In this document: piece by piece, positions 11,082 to 16,807 of the stretch | Position numbering within the stretch: position 1 is the first letter of the stretch | How the letters are laid out: each line of letters starts with the position of its first letter | Assembly: GCA_009778135.1 (NCBI GenBank) | Contig: WRKJ01000091.1 | Coordinates: 1-36,353 of the forward strand | Reading direction: 5' to 3' | DNA: 36,353 nt | Origin: Defluviitaleaceae bacterium | GTDB taxonomy: Bacteria > Bacillota_I > Bacilli_A > MOL361 > Turicibacteraceae | Made by a program: the position numbers and the translations under genes | Notes under the pieces: generated by a model | What the model saw: only the letters and a program-made list of their open reading frames with translations | Databases searched by the model: none | What the model was told of the DNA's origin: nothing

Positions 11082-11949
11082 TTCGTCGACAAAAACGTCA
11101 AATAAGAACAGAAAAAAAAGTGACATGATCTTGATTTTGGCGATTGTTGTTTTATTCCTCATTGGCGCAGGGTTGATGATTTATCCTGATGTGGCCAGTT
11201 GGCTTGCCAGTCGCAGCCAAGCAGGGATCGCAGCTCAGTATCATCGTGCGGTTGAATCGATTCCCAATGAAACGATTTTAGAACATTTTGAACGTGCGCG
11301 TGCTTACAATGCGTCGCTAATAGGGGGGCAAATTGAAGACCCTTTCGTTCCAGGAAGTGGTCGTGTCATCCCACCGGATTATTATGCCATCTTAAACTTG
11401 AATCAAGCCATGGGTGTGATTGACATTCCAGCGATAGATGTTCGCATTCCGATTTTTCATGGGACTGGTGAAGACGTTTTAATGCGTGGGGTCGGGCATA
11501 TCCCAGAGACACCTTTTCCCATCGGTCAACTGGGAAAACATGCTGTTTTAACCGGTCATACAGGCATTCCTTCTTCGCGCTTGTTCACTGATTTAGAACT
11601 GTTGGAAGTGGGAGATCTCTTTCTTATTACTGTTTTAAATGAGCGGATTGCTTATGAAGTGGATCAAATTAATGTTGTCCTACCCGATGAAATCAACAAC
11701 CTACGCAACTTACCAGACGAAGACTTGGTCACGCTGGTGACATGTACGCCTTATGGGATTAATTCCCATCGACTCCTTGTACGCGGACATCGTATTCCTT
11801 ACGAAGAAAACATGGAAGCAGAGATTGAACTGATTATCAACCCGTTAAACTGGCGTATCTTACTTATTATAGGAATGTCAAGCTTATTTCTATTAGGCTG
11901 GTTGATTTACGGGATTAAAAATTGGCGAAGAAAAAAACGAAAAACATAG
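11074..11949 (+). CDS. class C sortase (pilin polymerase)
   Basis: This 291-residue membrane transpeptidase joins the pilin Lys to the Thr of LPETG and so builds the pilus. The catalytic triad is visible as His162 (LTGHTG), Cys224 (TLVTCTPYG) and Arg233 (SHRLLVRG). A DPF lid motif at 89-91, N-terminal TM (about 19-40) and C-terminal TM (about 263-285) are class C hallmarks. The ATG lies inside the end of the pilin gene, so the two are co-translated. A strong hairpin terminator follows within 2 bases of the stop codon. No housekeeping (class A) sortase is encoded in the window; final wall anchoring would need one elsewhere. Confidence 0.95.
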   Translation: MASSSTKTSNKNRKKSDMILILAIVVLFLIGAGLMIYPDVASWLASRSQAGIAAQYHRAVESIPNETILEHFERARAYNASLIGGQIEDPFVPGSGRVIPPDYYAILNLNQAMGVIDIPAIDVRIPIFHGTGEDVLMRGVGHIPETPFPIGQLGKHAVLTGHTGIPSSRLFTDLELLEVGDLFLITVLNERIAYEVDQINVVLPDEINNLRNLPDEDLVTLVTCTPYGINSHRLLVRGHRIPYEENMEAEIELIINPLNWRILLIIGMSSLFLLGWLIYGIKNWRRKKRKT

Positions 11950-11950
11950 A

Positions 11951-11986
11951 AAAAGGTTGCCTTGATTATGAGGCAACCTTTTGTGG
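11951..11986 (+). terminator. rho-independent terminator of the pilus operon
   Basis: AAAAGGTTGCCT (11951-11962) pairs perfectly with AGGCAACCTTTT (11971-11982) around an 8-base loop. It ends the adhesin-pilin-sortase transcript. A group IIC intron boundary begins about 7 bases downstream, matching the known habit of IIC introns of inserting just after terminator stems. Confidence 0.9.
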
Positions 11987-11988
11987 TA

Positions 11989-12110
11989 GTGTGCCAGACA
12001 TGGCGATGTTCTAGACGATGAAAGTCCGCTTCGGAGGTATTCGTCGACCAACCATTAGGGAAGCACAAGGTGTGTGCACCGTGAGGTGTAAGCTAATTGT
12101 CGTGATCATC
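11989..12110 (+). mobile_element. group IIC intron remnant, 5' end (domain I)
   Basis: The segment opens with GTGTGCC-x-GACATGG and continues with TCTAGACGATGAAAGTCC and a late ACCGTGAGGTG. This matches, from memory, the conserved 5' end of bacterial group IIC introns such as that of Oceanobacillus iheyensis. It begins 7 bases after a terminator stem, the preferred IIC target. Only about 120 nt of domain I survive before an antisense permease gene begins. No reverse transcriptase is present. Confidence 0.8.
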
Positions 12111-12120
12111 ATTCAAGATT

Positions 12121-13677
12121 TTAAACGAGTTTCTGCTTCTTTAAAACAAACATGATTGCAATCAATGTAGTCATCATAACGATAATGATTGAAGAAAAGT
12201 AAATCTTAAGCGTATTAAGCAAACCGAGAGAGAAGTGATGACTCGCCAACACGTCCTCTAGCGTAGGTATAAATCCAAATCCCATCAGATTCAAATCATT
12301 AACTCGCCCTAAACTTATGACCGTAATTTCTGGTTGCGCATTTACCCATTCATTATACACTAATTGCAATGATATTTCAGAAGATATAAAATAGGAAGCA
12401 ATCATGAAACATACAAATGCAACATGGAAAATCAATAAAGTTTCTGTCATAAACTGCAATACAATGTTTTTACTTTTTTCCCCTATTGCGTTATAAACAT
12501 TTATTTCATATCGTCTATCGTAGAAAAACAGCATAAGTGTTAGTGAAAGTAATGATAGACTAACCAAAGAGGCTGTTATGCTAATTCCATCTGCAATTGA
12601 CCTCATATCTCGAAAAATTGTCGAAACACGTTCAATCTCATGATAAAAATCATCTACTATCCAGAATTCTGGTAGCATCTCTGTCACTATCGTGCGAAAG
12701 CCATATATATATGAGAAATCATCAAAAACAAACAGAACATTTTGGTATTCCGCAGCAAGCGGAGCAACTTCAAAAGAAAAGAAATCACTACCAAAAGCTT
12801 CCAGTATTTCATCCTCTGTTGCTGATTCTAAAAATGTATCTCTAAAGGTTAAAGAATTTCTCGCAATTGAAATAGGAACGTAGATTTGTTGATTGAAACT
12901 AAGGTAGTTTCGAGCAGCTACCCAATCATAGATTGTGGGTTCTACCAAAACTTCAAATATCCCTACAACTTCCAACTCAACTTTTTCATAAATCGGACCT
13001 ATAAAAGATGGAAAAAACGAATTCAATACAAAAATATCTCCTATTGAAAGCTGATTTTCTTCTGCAAATCGCTCAGGTATCACAGCAACCCCAATTCCTA
13101 GCCTAATCTCCTCTTCTATAAAAGTTCTCCCCTCTATTAATTGCATGCTCCCTGATCTCAAATCAAGAATATCAGGATTTCGGACACCTTTAACTGTAAA
13201 TAATTCAAGCAAGTCATATTCAGGTTCAGTAAAAAGCACAGGTGGCCAATTGCGAAAAAGATCGTCTACTTCCCAATCGGAAAATCCTGCATCTAGATAA
13301 ACTTCACGAATATCAGGATTTCGAAGTTCTTCTGAAAAAAGGAAGTGACTAAAAACAGCATAATCAAACTCACGGACATGAGGAAGTGATCCAATTTGGT
13401 CCAAAAGTTCACGATTAAGCATGTATTGAAACTCAAAATTTCCAGCCCCCCATATCTCGGTTTCCAATGCAAGTGCGTCAGTATCAGTGGTTAGTGTTGC
13501 AATAGGTAGAACCCTACTCTTTAAACTATTTTCTGTTTGATAAATCGCTTCGTTGATTAAGAAACCACTGCCAATCAAAAGACCTATTGCTAGAATCAAA
13601 AAAAATGTGATCATCGTTTTGATGAGATTTCGTGTTAAACTAATCATTGCTCTCTTATGTAACTTCATAAATGACAT
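12121..13677 (-). CDS. orphan MacB/FtsX-type ABC permease
   Basis: This 518-residue membrane protein has TM1 near 20-41, an extracytoplasmic domain of about 320 residues, then TM2 (about 361-382), TM3 (about 408-430) and TM4 (about 490-512). That is the MacB/FtsX permease layout. The loop after TM2 (DRRYEINVYNAIGEKS) fits the FtsX coupling segment. The start ATG is preceded by AGAGGAG about 5 bases upstream. No ATPase gene is adjacent, so it must borrow an NBD or its partner has been lost. It is transcribed antisense to, and lies between, the 5' and 3' remnants of a group IIC intron. It differs from the two fused MacB proteins at the left of the window in lacking an ATPase domain. Confidence 0.82.
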   Translation of the reverse strand: MSFMKLHKRAMISLTRNLIKTMITFFLILAIGLLIGSGFLINEAIYQTENSLKSRVLPIATLTTDTDALALETEIWGAGNFEFQYMLNRELLDQIGSLPHVREFDYAVFSHFLFSEELRNPDIREVYLDAGFSDWEVDDLFRNWPPVLFTEPEYDLLELFTVKGVRNPDILDLRSGSMQLIEGRTFIEEEIRLGIGVAVIPERFAEENQLSIGDIFVLNSFFPSFIGPIYEKVELEVVGIFEVLVEPTIYDWVAARNYLSFNQQIYVPISIARNSLTFRDTFLESATEDEILEAFGSDFFSFEVAPLAAEYQNVLFVFDDFSYIYGFRTIVTEMLPEFWIVDDFYHEIERVSTIFRDMRSIADGISITASLVSLSLLSLTLMLFFYDRRYEINVYNAIGEKSKNIVLQFMTETLLIFHVAFVCFMIASYFISSEISLQLVYNEWVNAQPEITVISLGRVNDLNLMGFGFIPTLEDVLASHHFSLGLLNTLKIYFSSIIIVMMTTLIAIMFVLKKQKLV

Positions 13678-13745
13678 CTACTCCTCTACAACTTCATTGC
13701 TCATTCTAAAGTAGTTCATCGTGCATTATCTAATAAAAGATTAAA

Positions 13746-13766
13746 GCAGAGGGGAATATCCTCTGC
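13746..13766. other. hairpin upstream of the permease gene
   Basis: GCAGAGG (13746-13752) pairs perfectly with CCTCTGC (13760-13766) around a 7-base loop. It lies between the permease start and the intron 3' remnant. It may be a terminator for the membrane-protein gene read from the right, or a leftover of intron domain IV; the T-run is poor on either strand. Confidence 0.45.
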
Positions 13767-13807
13767 CTTAGAACATTATTTAACTGATGCACACTGTAAT
13801 ATGAATT

Positions 13808-13881
13808 GAACCGCCGTATACGTGACCAGTATGTACGGTGGTGTGAGAGGGGCGAATTAACTTTGATTAATTCCCTCTACT
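13808..13881 (+). mobile_element. group IIC intron remnant, 3' end (domains V-VI)
   Basis: GAACCGCCGTATAC through TACGGTGGTGTGAGAGG matches the domain V and linker of group IIC introns. A 9-bp lower stem (ACCGCCGTA with TACGGTGGT) contains the CGC catalytic triad and a 2-nt 3' bulge (TG) is present, but the distal stem pairs poorly, as expected for a decayed copy. Domain VI is seen as GAGGG...GAATTAA paired with TTAATTCCCTC, followed by the TACTC-type 3' end. It has the same orientation as the 5' remnant at 11989. Confidence 0.85.
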
Positions 13882-14362
13882 CGTTTTTGGCTATGATTGA
13901 TTTTCTCCAATACATATAGGCGGTAAAGGACAACATAACAATTGATAAGACATCCAAGATGAGAAGCGTTTGTCCATTTAGAAAAAATCCTTGGCTTGAA
14001 TTAGCACGTGTCGCACCAGAAAGCAACGAAATAATTGATCTATCATTTGTTACAGCTGAAATGTAAAGTCCACCTTGAACAACGGTATGAATGAAGATGT
14101 GAATCAAATATAGCATCGCCACAATAAACGTTTGCTTATTTAGTGGAATCCAAGTGAGCGGAACAATGATGAGAGGTGAGATGCGTCTTACAACGTCTAA
14201 TCCATTTAAGATGAGTGGCAAAAAATGTTCCAACCATATTTCTTGTTCTTCTAAATAAAATGTAACTCTAAACATGACTACCCAACTAATGATTGTCGAC
14301 AGTAGCAAAAAAATTGATAGAAATATTTTTACGTAACATGTATGACTAAGTATTTTTTTCAT
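13877..14362 (-). CDS. four-helix membrane protein of unknown function
   Basis: I do not recognise this 161-residue protein. It has about four hydrophobic helices (near 9-30, 60-75, 80-98 and 130-150), a short Lys-rich N-terminus and a polar tail. It has a good promoter on the same strand (14404-14432). The TAG stop lies inside the group IIC intron 3' end (TACTC on the opposite strand), so the native C-terminus may have been replaced when the intron inserted. It could be an immunity or accessory protein, but nothing in the sequence proves this. Confidence 0.6.
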   Translation of the reverse strand: MKKILSHTCYVKIFLSIFLLLSTIISWVVMFRVTFYLEEQEIWLEHFLPLILNGLDVVRRISPLIIVPLTWIPLNKQTFIVAMLYLIHIFIHTVVQGGLYISAVTNDRSIISLLSGATRANSSQGFFLNGQTLLILDVLSIVMLSFTAYMYWRKSIIAKNE

Positions 14363-14403: not shown

Positions 14404-14432
14404 ATTCTACAATGTTTTCGGTACTATGTCAA
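14404..14432 (-). promoter_or_regulatory. promoter for the four-helix membrane protein
   Basis: On the minus strand TTGACA (14432-14427) and TAGAAT (14409-14404) are separated by 17 bases, a near-consensus vegetative promoter ending about 40 bases upstream of the ATG. Confidence 0.75.
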
Positions 14433-14563
14433 GTGTTTACACAGCCTAAATCGCGTAAAACGCATGAAACTTGTAACAGTAATCAATGCAGTCAAGCTAA
14501 GGAAATCCCCTTTGAGATCAGTTTTGTTCAATTTCATTTGTGTGTGGTGTTCTGAATGCTTGC

Positions 14564-14928
14564 AAAATCGTCTGTAATCATTGATTTTGGAGTCGAAAAA
14601 GACGAATTGGGTGCTGGATACCTGGAAAATCGTCTGTAACCATCGATTTTGGAGTCGAAACAGACGAATTGAGTGTTGAATACCTGCAAAATCGTCTGTA
14701 ATCATCAATTTTGGAGTCGAAACAGACGAATTGGGTGCTGAACACTTGTAAAATCGTCTGTAATCATCAATTTTGGAGTCAAAACAGACGAATTGAGTGT
14801 TGAATGCTTGCAAAATCGTCTGTAACCATCGATTTTGGAGTTAAAACAGACGAATTGGGTGTTGAATGCTTGCAAAATCGTCTGTAATCATCGATTTTGA
14901 AGTCAAAACAGACGAATTGGGTGCTGGA
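14564..14928. repeat. six 62-bp tandem repeats, each with a hairpin
   Basis: Units beginning AAAATCGTCTGTAA recur at 14564, 14626, 14688, 14750, 14812 and 14874, an exact 62-base period. Each holds the complementary pair TCGTCTGT and ACAGACGA around a loop of about 22 bases, so the array can form a row of identical stems. The period is not a multiple of three, so it is not a coding repeat. It fills most of the gene-free gap between the four-helix protein and the collagen-like gene (14363-14998). Confidence 0.9.
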
Positions 14929-14998
14929 TTTGTTCCGATGGCAAATCTTTTCAAGTTAAGACTCGTTTTATTAAAAAAGATTCTGATATAGCATTTTT

Positions 14999-16807
14999 TT
15001 AAGCAATTTGTGTTAATGTCATAATGGCGCCTGTTCCATTAGAAAGTGTGACAGGTGAGTTACCGCCGAACATGGTGAGTTGGACAGTGTTTCCTGCATT
15101 CAAGTGGATGATACTGGTGTTGGTGTAAGTTGTGGAAGGGGTTGAAGCGCTAAAAACTGTTCCAGTGACAGCAGTGCCATTGACATAAATGGCAGTGTTG
15201 TTGTTAACGGGTGTTGTCGTGTTAACGGTGTAGGAAACCAAGTAGTCTCCAGTCATGGTTGCTGTAAAAACGGTGTTTGCACCATTGGCTGTGAATCCAG
15301 ATGATGTATAAGTAGCGGTAGGTAATGGAATGGCTGTCCCAGCTGATGTGATAGTAAGGGTAGGTGAAATGGTGTTGGCAACGCTTAGCCCATTTGATGT
15401 GAGGCTTGTCCCGGTAGCACCGGTGACGCCATTTGTTCCGGTTGTGCCTGTTTCGCCTTGGACGCCTTGAACACCTTGAGGTCCCGTTGGACCAATAGGC
15501 CCTTGTTCGCCTTGCAAACCTTGAACACCTTGGGATCCTGTTGGTCCTTCAGCGCCTGTTTCGCCTTGTAAACCTTGAACACCTTGAGGACCCGTCGGAC
15601 CAATAGGTCCTTGTTCACCCTGGAGTCCTTGAATACCTTGGGACCCTGTTGGACCTTCAGCGCCTGTTTCGCCTTGCAAACCTTGAACACCTTGAGGTCC
15701 CGTGAGACCAATAGGTCCTTGAACACCTTGCAAACCTTGAACGCCTTGGGATCCTGTTGGTCCTTCAGTTCCTTGTTCGCCTTGCAAACCTTGAACGCCT
15801 TGGGGACCGATGGGTCCTTCAGGTCCTGTCTCCCCTTGGATCCCTTGCACACCTTGAGGTCCAGTGGGACCATCAAGTCCTTGTTCGCCTTGGACACCTT
15901 GTAATCCTTGAGGGCCGGTTGGTCCTTCGGGTCCTTGCTCGCCTTGAATGCCTTGCACGCCTTGAGGACCCGTCGGTCCGATTTCTCCCGCTTCTCCTGT
16001 TCCACCTGACCCTGGAGGTCCTTGGGGGCCTTGAAGTCCTTGAACACCTTGAGATCCTGTGGGGCCAATAGGTCCTTGCTCGCCTTGAATGCCTTGTAAT
16101 CCTTGAGGTCCGGTAGGACCATCAAGCCCTTGTTCGCCTTGAAGTCCTTGAACACCTTGAGGCCCAATGGGTCCTTCGGGTCCTGTTTCCCCTTGAAATC
16201 CTTGAACACCTTGCGGACCCGTGGGACCATCAAGTCCTTGTTCGCCTTGAAGTCCTTGAATACCTTGAGGTCCCGTGGGACCGTCGAGTCCTTGTTCGCC
16301 TTGAAGTCCTTGAACACCTTGAGGACCTGTGGGACCATCGAGTCCTTGTTCGCCTTGAAGTCCTTGAACACCTTGAGGACCTGTGGGACCATCAAGCCCT
16401 TGTTCGCCTTGCAAGCCTTGAACACCTTGAGGACCTGTGGGGCCGTCGAGTCCTTGTTCGCCTTGAAGTCCTTGAACACCTTGAGGACCTGTGGGGCCGT
16501 CGAGTCCTTGTTCGCCTTGCAAGCCTTGAACACCTTGAGGTCCAGCTGGTCCTACAGGTCCCGTCGCCCCTGTTGCGCCAGTTTCACTGGCAATTCCTGG
16601 TTCCCCTTGAGGACCTGTTGGTCCTGTGTTTCCTGTTGGCCCTGTTGCGCCAGTTTTTCCTGGGATACCGCGAGGACCTTTAGGTCCTTGACAAAAAGAA
16701 TGTTTTGAACAGCAAGGAGACATGCTGCTCTTATTGCAATAAATGATCCCACCACATGAACTGCAATATGTTGTATCTTGTTGCCAGATGCTTGTCTTGT
16801 CATACAT
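14999..16807 (-). CDS. collagen-like protein with Cys-rich head and C-terminal jelly-roll-like domain
   Basis: This 602-residue protein has three parts. The head (1-40) carries six cysteines (15, 18, 24, 32, 33, 39) and no signal peptide. The stalk (about 41-465) is Gly-X-Y triplets, mostly an 18-residue module [18 protein letters not shown] repeated many times. The C-terminal about 137 residues are beta-rich (Thr, Asn, Val) and resemble the BclA/C1q-like trimerising domains of exosporium and spore-associated filaments. Two interruptions of the triplet register are visible, near GIASET and GPPGSGGTG. The start is the ATG after AGGAG. With no Sec signal, it is either laid down on a spore surface, where a Cys-rich head could crosslink it, or exported another way. 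Spore association is inferred. Confidence 0.88.

Follow-up and report, generated by a model that had tools for sequence, protein, structure and literature searches.

An antisense permease gene between the ends of what is probably a single decayed group IIC intron

Group IIC (bacterial class C) introns prefer sites after transcription terminators (PMC4424553, PMC8919778). Truncated copies make up most of the group II introns in bacteria (PMC4424553), and loss of the 3' end together with the reverse transcriptase (RT) is the general route of decay (PMC5894124). The truncated intron FRE652 of Sinorhizobium is an inactive decay remnant (PMC5894124), and so is the locus described here; FRE652, however, has lost its 3' end, whereas this locus keeps both ends with a gene between them. 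The locus shares with group IIC introns at large the GTGTG start, the structure of domains V and VI, the RT C-terminus and the position after a terminator. It differs from them in having neither the body of domain I, nor domains II and III, nor nearly all of the RT, in carrying a foreign antisense gene, and in a mutated 3' dinucleotide. IS-interrupted IIC introns of relatives (L098, L099, L100, L101) likewise have a foreign gene between two ends, but there the insert is a transposase element, while here it is a permease gene with no transposase.

The window, meaning the whole stretch of DNA analysed, is a contig of 36,353 nucleotides from the genome of a Defluviitaleaceae bacterium, a 2.3 Mb draft assembled in 109 contigs. 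Below, G000 denotes the window's own genome, C-numbers contigs (those of G000 unless another genome is named), and L-numbers the loci that were fetched. We judge, at a probability of roughly 0.7, that one IIC intron died at a terminator and that its interior was replaced by an antisense permease segment. Coordinates of the features are collected in Table 1.

Table 1. Features of the intron locus and its immediate surroundings, in window coordinates.
Feature	Coordinates	Strand	Basis
Terminator hairpin of the sortase (pilus) operon, AAAAGGTTGCC...GGCAACCTTTT	11951..11982	.	Sequence reading; terminator scan
Group IIC intron 5' remnant (start of domain I, ~106-109 nt)	11989..12097	+	blastn to L075; stubs in same genome
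Foreign segment (~1.59 kb) in place of ~1.6 kb of intron interior	~12098..13686	-	Unmatched to intron or RT
Orphan MacB/FtsX-type ABC permease gene, 518 aa	12121..13677	-	Pfam; paralogues; TM-like segments
Intron RT C-terminus, in-frame remnant (40 codons)	13687..13806	+	tblastn to L075 RT; open frame YNFIAHSK...HCNMN*
Domains V and VI of the intron, 3' boundary at 13885, terminal AT changed to TT	13808..13885	+	Rfam RF00029; multi-copy boundary comparison
Membrane-protein ORF, 161 aa, same strand as the permease and upstream of it, stop codon inside intron domain VI	13877..14362	-	

In the pilus operon, the sortase gene ends at 11949; the terminator hairpin comes next and then, directly after it, the intron start. 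As the sequence-only reading had proposed, this hairpin is a canonical IIC target; the terminator scan scored it as terminator-like on the minus strand also, making it a two-way terminator. The 5' end that the same reading saw here is well supported. The sequence GTGTGCCAG begins at 11989 with GTGTG, in agreement with a GUGYG start, and continues into the beginning of domain I. By blastn, the remnant is 77% identical over 101 nt to the 5' end of L075, an RT-bearing IIC intron from a relative, and it also matches other 5' stubs within the window's own genome (best E=1.1e-13). Its score of 89.7 bits against our model R1 is not independent, since the window was included in R1; all covariance models built here contain the window itself, and the independent evidence comes from BLAST, tblastn and Rfam.

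At the other end, and in the same orientation, 32 of the 40 codons in the RT remnant match residues 402-433 of the L075 RT with 66% identity (tblastn, E=1e-8). Domains V and VI follow, with a match to RF00029 at 13809-13885 (31 bits, E=0.0015) that lies under the family gathering score of 40; in a 10-sequence alignment the pairs of both domains are retained, save one domain V pair that is broken in the window. The 3' part (13687-13885, ~199 nt) is 80% identical to L075 over 146 nt. A further copy of the 3' end, at 93-94% identity, is found on C80 of the same genome, the similarity beginning only near 13774. RF00029, C80 and L075 thus agree that the IIC 3' end reported from the sequence alone, at 13808-13881, is real; its boundary, however, lies four bases further, at 13885, because multi-copy relatives terminate in ...CTCGAT with a T as the first base beyond the intron. 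Intact relatives end in ...CTCGAT, whereas the window ends in ...CTCGTT and so has no terminal AY. The C80 remnant has CT at this dinucleotide, so that both 3' copies in the genome are mutated there. That remnant lies directly against an IS66-like fragment whose ends, GTAAGCGAG...CTCGCTTAC, are inverted (L015:5095-5560), an arrangement that is probably an IS-linked intron deletion, and a second degenerate group II-like RT fragment occurs near 2526-2753 of L015.

Only about 109 nt of domain I are left, and between the two parts, in 12098-13686, no match to the intron middle or to an RT was found with both strands searched. The claim that domains II-IV and the RT are gone needs one amendment: the interior, domains II and III included, is absent from both strands, but the RT C-terminus persists. 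The 518-residue antisense product seen between the ends is a permease, with Pfam matches to MacB_PCD (29.1 bits) and FtsX (26.3 bits), both above cut-off, and about four TM-like segments with a large loop. An antisense-ORF artefact was considered and rejected, the Pfam matches and the paralogues showing a real permease. The protein shares fold families, length and apparent topology with MacB/FtsX-type ABC permeases. Paralogues in the same genome reach ~32% identity or less, and several have a partner of ~370 residues encoded upstream; the window permease differs in having neither such a partner nor an ATPase gene next to it, its neighbours being the sortase and the 161-aa membrane protein. Its GC3 of 0.28 is at the low edge of the range of its neighbours (0.29-0.40). 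The foreign segment starts about 9 nt before the permease start codon, at a GAGGAG motif, and stops about 23 nt past the stop codon. In relatives, searches for the same permease returned paralogues only, at most ~33% identical. Searches for the permease or its junction returned nothing from genome contigs, viral contigs and phages, and a single 22% match from plasmids. No second copy of the intron with its permease was found in these searches, and a check for intron ends flanking similar permeases elsewhere, suggested with the original observation, found none among the relatives and contigs searched.

Judged from what is left of it, the intron is dead and no longer splices or moves, because it has lost most of domain I, domains II and III and the RT body, its 3' dinucleotide has changed, domain V has a broken pair, and no intact IIC RT was found in the genome. 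Of a class C RT ORF, the locus has only the C-terminal remnant, and the complete ribozyme and related RT of an ORF-less IIC intron mobilised in trans are both lacking. Neither an intact IIC intron nor an intact IIC RT was found in the window's genome. Its two RVT_1 matches lie on C68, where the RT is retron-like or otherwise unrelated, and on C80, where it is a broken fragment. The former belongs to an RT-containing ORF of ~595 codons with a possibly structured leader (L013 and L016, G000 C68:20000-23440), and is perhaps a retron-type or other non-intron RT.

Three further 5' stubs occur in the genome (on C100, C82 and C58), each directly past a terminator-like hairpin. The C58 stub (L091, 1501-1630), diverged and past a terminator, runs straight into a large membrane-protein gene that is DUF1430-like by eye; intron domain I may be the source of this gene's ribosome-binding site. 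The C100 stub (L006:2601-4139) is followed by a QueC-like gene, seemingly shortened at its N-terminus, and a GNAT acetyltransferase gene; no intron 3' end was found at this locus.

Intron-end models were run on 198 relatives and on a partly overlapping set of 295 genomes, and loci were fetched and their ends paired. The result was 67 paired intron ends in total, mostly full introns of 1853-1963 nt. An RT was present in 20 of the 20 full-length loci checked, including all twelve single-copy ones previously unexamined; same-length copies within one genome were sampled for this check rather than all checked. The other pairs comprised ORF-less introns of 536-628 nt, gutted minis of 137-284 nt, one intron with a shortened RT (1384 nt), and IS-interrupted introns of 3.2-6.7 kb. 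Only in the window, among all 67 pairs, does a non-transposase gene lie between the ends. In six gutted loci from relatives (L110, L118, L119, L120, L139, L154) a short 5' stub is joined to domain V or the RT C-terminus, with no cargo, and lone 5' stubs were common. Where IIC introns are truncated or gutted, about 10 of 22 5' breakpoints fall close together, at intron nt ~101-121 (window 11989-12097; L091, G000 C58:15911-16021; L107, L109, L110, L119, L120, L122, L138, L143). Biased detection may contribute to this clustering, as the search model covers nt 1-112 and a local alignment stops once conservation drops. At G310:C48:95229-95413, the 5' start of one intron comes two bases after the 3' end of another on the same strand, which suggests a tandem IIC insertion.

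The alternative that survives best, although we consider it unlikely, is that the permease gene is native and lies between two separate intron remnants, one a 5' stub next to the pilus terminator, the other a 3' remnant that has lost its 5' side and separates the permease from the 161-aa gene. Lone remnants of both kinds exist in the genome (5' stubs on C58, C82 and C100, a 3' remnant on C80), and the permease and 161-aa genes, on one strand, could be an old operon. The flanks joined without the intron also give no tidy empty site: the 161-aa ORF then continues across the hairpin of the terminator, so that the two flanks may originally have lain apart, a result that slippage by one base within the junction's T run would alter. 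Such a history, however, requires two insertions and two truncations, and would put the 3' remnant at a site without a plus-strand terminator, on the wrong side of the start codon of a minus-strand gene. At its inner edge the 3' part abuts the permease start and not a terminator, so that this edge does not mark an insertion of its own. This, together with the similar divergence of the two parts from L075 (77% and 80%), favours one intron over two, and both ends probably belong to a single intron at a single canonical terminator target.

On the single-intron reading, a group IIC intron would have entered past the terminator of the sortase operon and then died. An illegitimate rearrangement would have swapped its interior, from intron nt ~109 to RT codon ~400, for an antisense segment consisting of almost nothing except the permease gene with its ribosome-binding site. 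The order of these events was not seen, because no empty or intact-intron state of the site was found in the relatives searched; a homologue of the 161-aa protein, sought as a means of locating the empty site, was absent from 12 relatives. The total length of 1897 nt falls within the full-intron range. The near-equal length of the insert and the lost intron is unexplained, and we treat it as a coincidence.

The sequence-only reading had offered two histories, a gene inserted with ribozyme parts deleted, or an intron that captured cargo in place of its own ORF. The first fits these results. The second does not, since more of the interior than the ORF was replaced, the 3' splice site is mutated, and neither a helper RT nor a second copy was found. 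A mobile intron that captured the permease and was moved by an RT acting in trans is thus very improbable, in spite of the presence of both ends and the tight trimming of the gene: the ribozyme body is gone, and functional-looking ORF-less IIC introns retain ~540-630 nt of ribozyme, compared with ~310 nt here. Just as doubtful is a non-autonomous IIC-derived element, with an antisense passenger gene between minimal ends of ~109 and ~199 nt, that once moved in trans. If true, an intron with a passenger would represent a novel means by which group II introns move genes, but the evidence is against it.

Group II RTs switch templates, and in this way intron cDNA could have been linked to an RNA copy of the permease during retrotransposition. 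In favour of this history, the insert is little larger than the gene, but a switch onto permease mRNA would give a sense insert, and the antisense orientation observed would call for an antisense transcript; we regard this history, too, as highly unlikely. Least probable of all is an artefact of assembly, with unrelated DNA wrongly placed between intron ends, for although the draft is in many contigs and the 3' end is a repeat (94% copy on C80), the junctions at 12098 and 13686 are not at a repeat edge, the similarity to C80 starting well inside the 3' part and reaching only 93-94%.

If the permease is expressed, as is probable, its transcript would come by read-through from the 161-aa gene or from a promoter in the old intron, and would stop at the two-way terminator past the 5' stub. 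Upstream of the 161-aa gene there is a strong promoter-like match, TTGACA-17-TAGAAT, and the promoter scan found no more than chance inside the old intron. Read-through is uncertain because a terminator-like hairpin (13770-13742) intervenes between the two genes. Further along the window, at 14424-14930, units of ~74 nt repeated in tandem (GCAAAATCGTCTGTAATCATCGATTTTGGAGTCGAAACAGACGAATTGGGTGCTGAA...), each with a hairpin-like motif, separate the 161-aa gene from a collagen-like gene (14999-16807), whose 602-aa collagen-repeat product has a BclA C-terminal domain and which adjoins the pilus operon.

The locus is a chance relic of intron decay with an unusual insert. As a decayed intron it matters little. 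It shows, however, that an ordinary gene can sit in a dead IIC intron and keep an open frame, perhaps with expression through old intron DNA.
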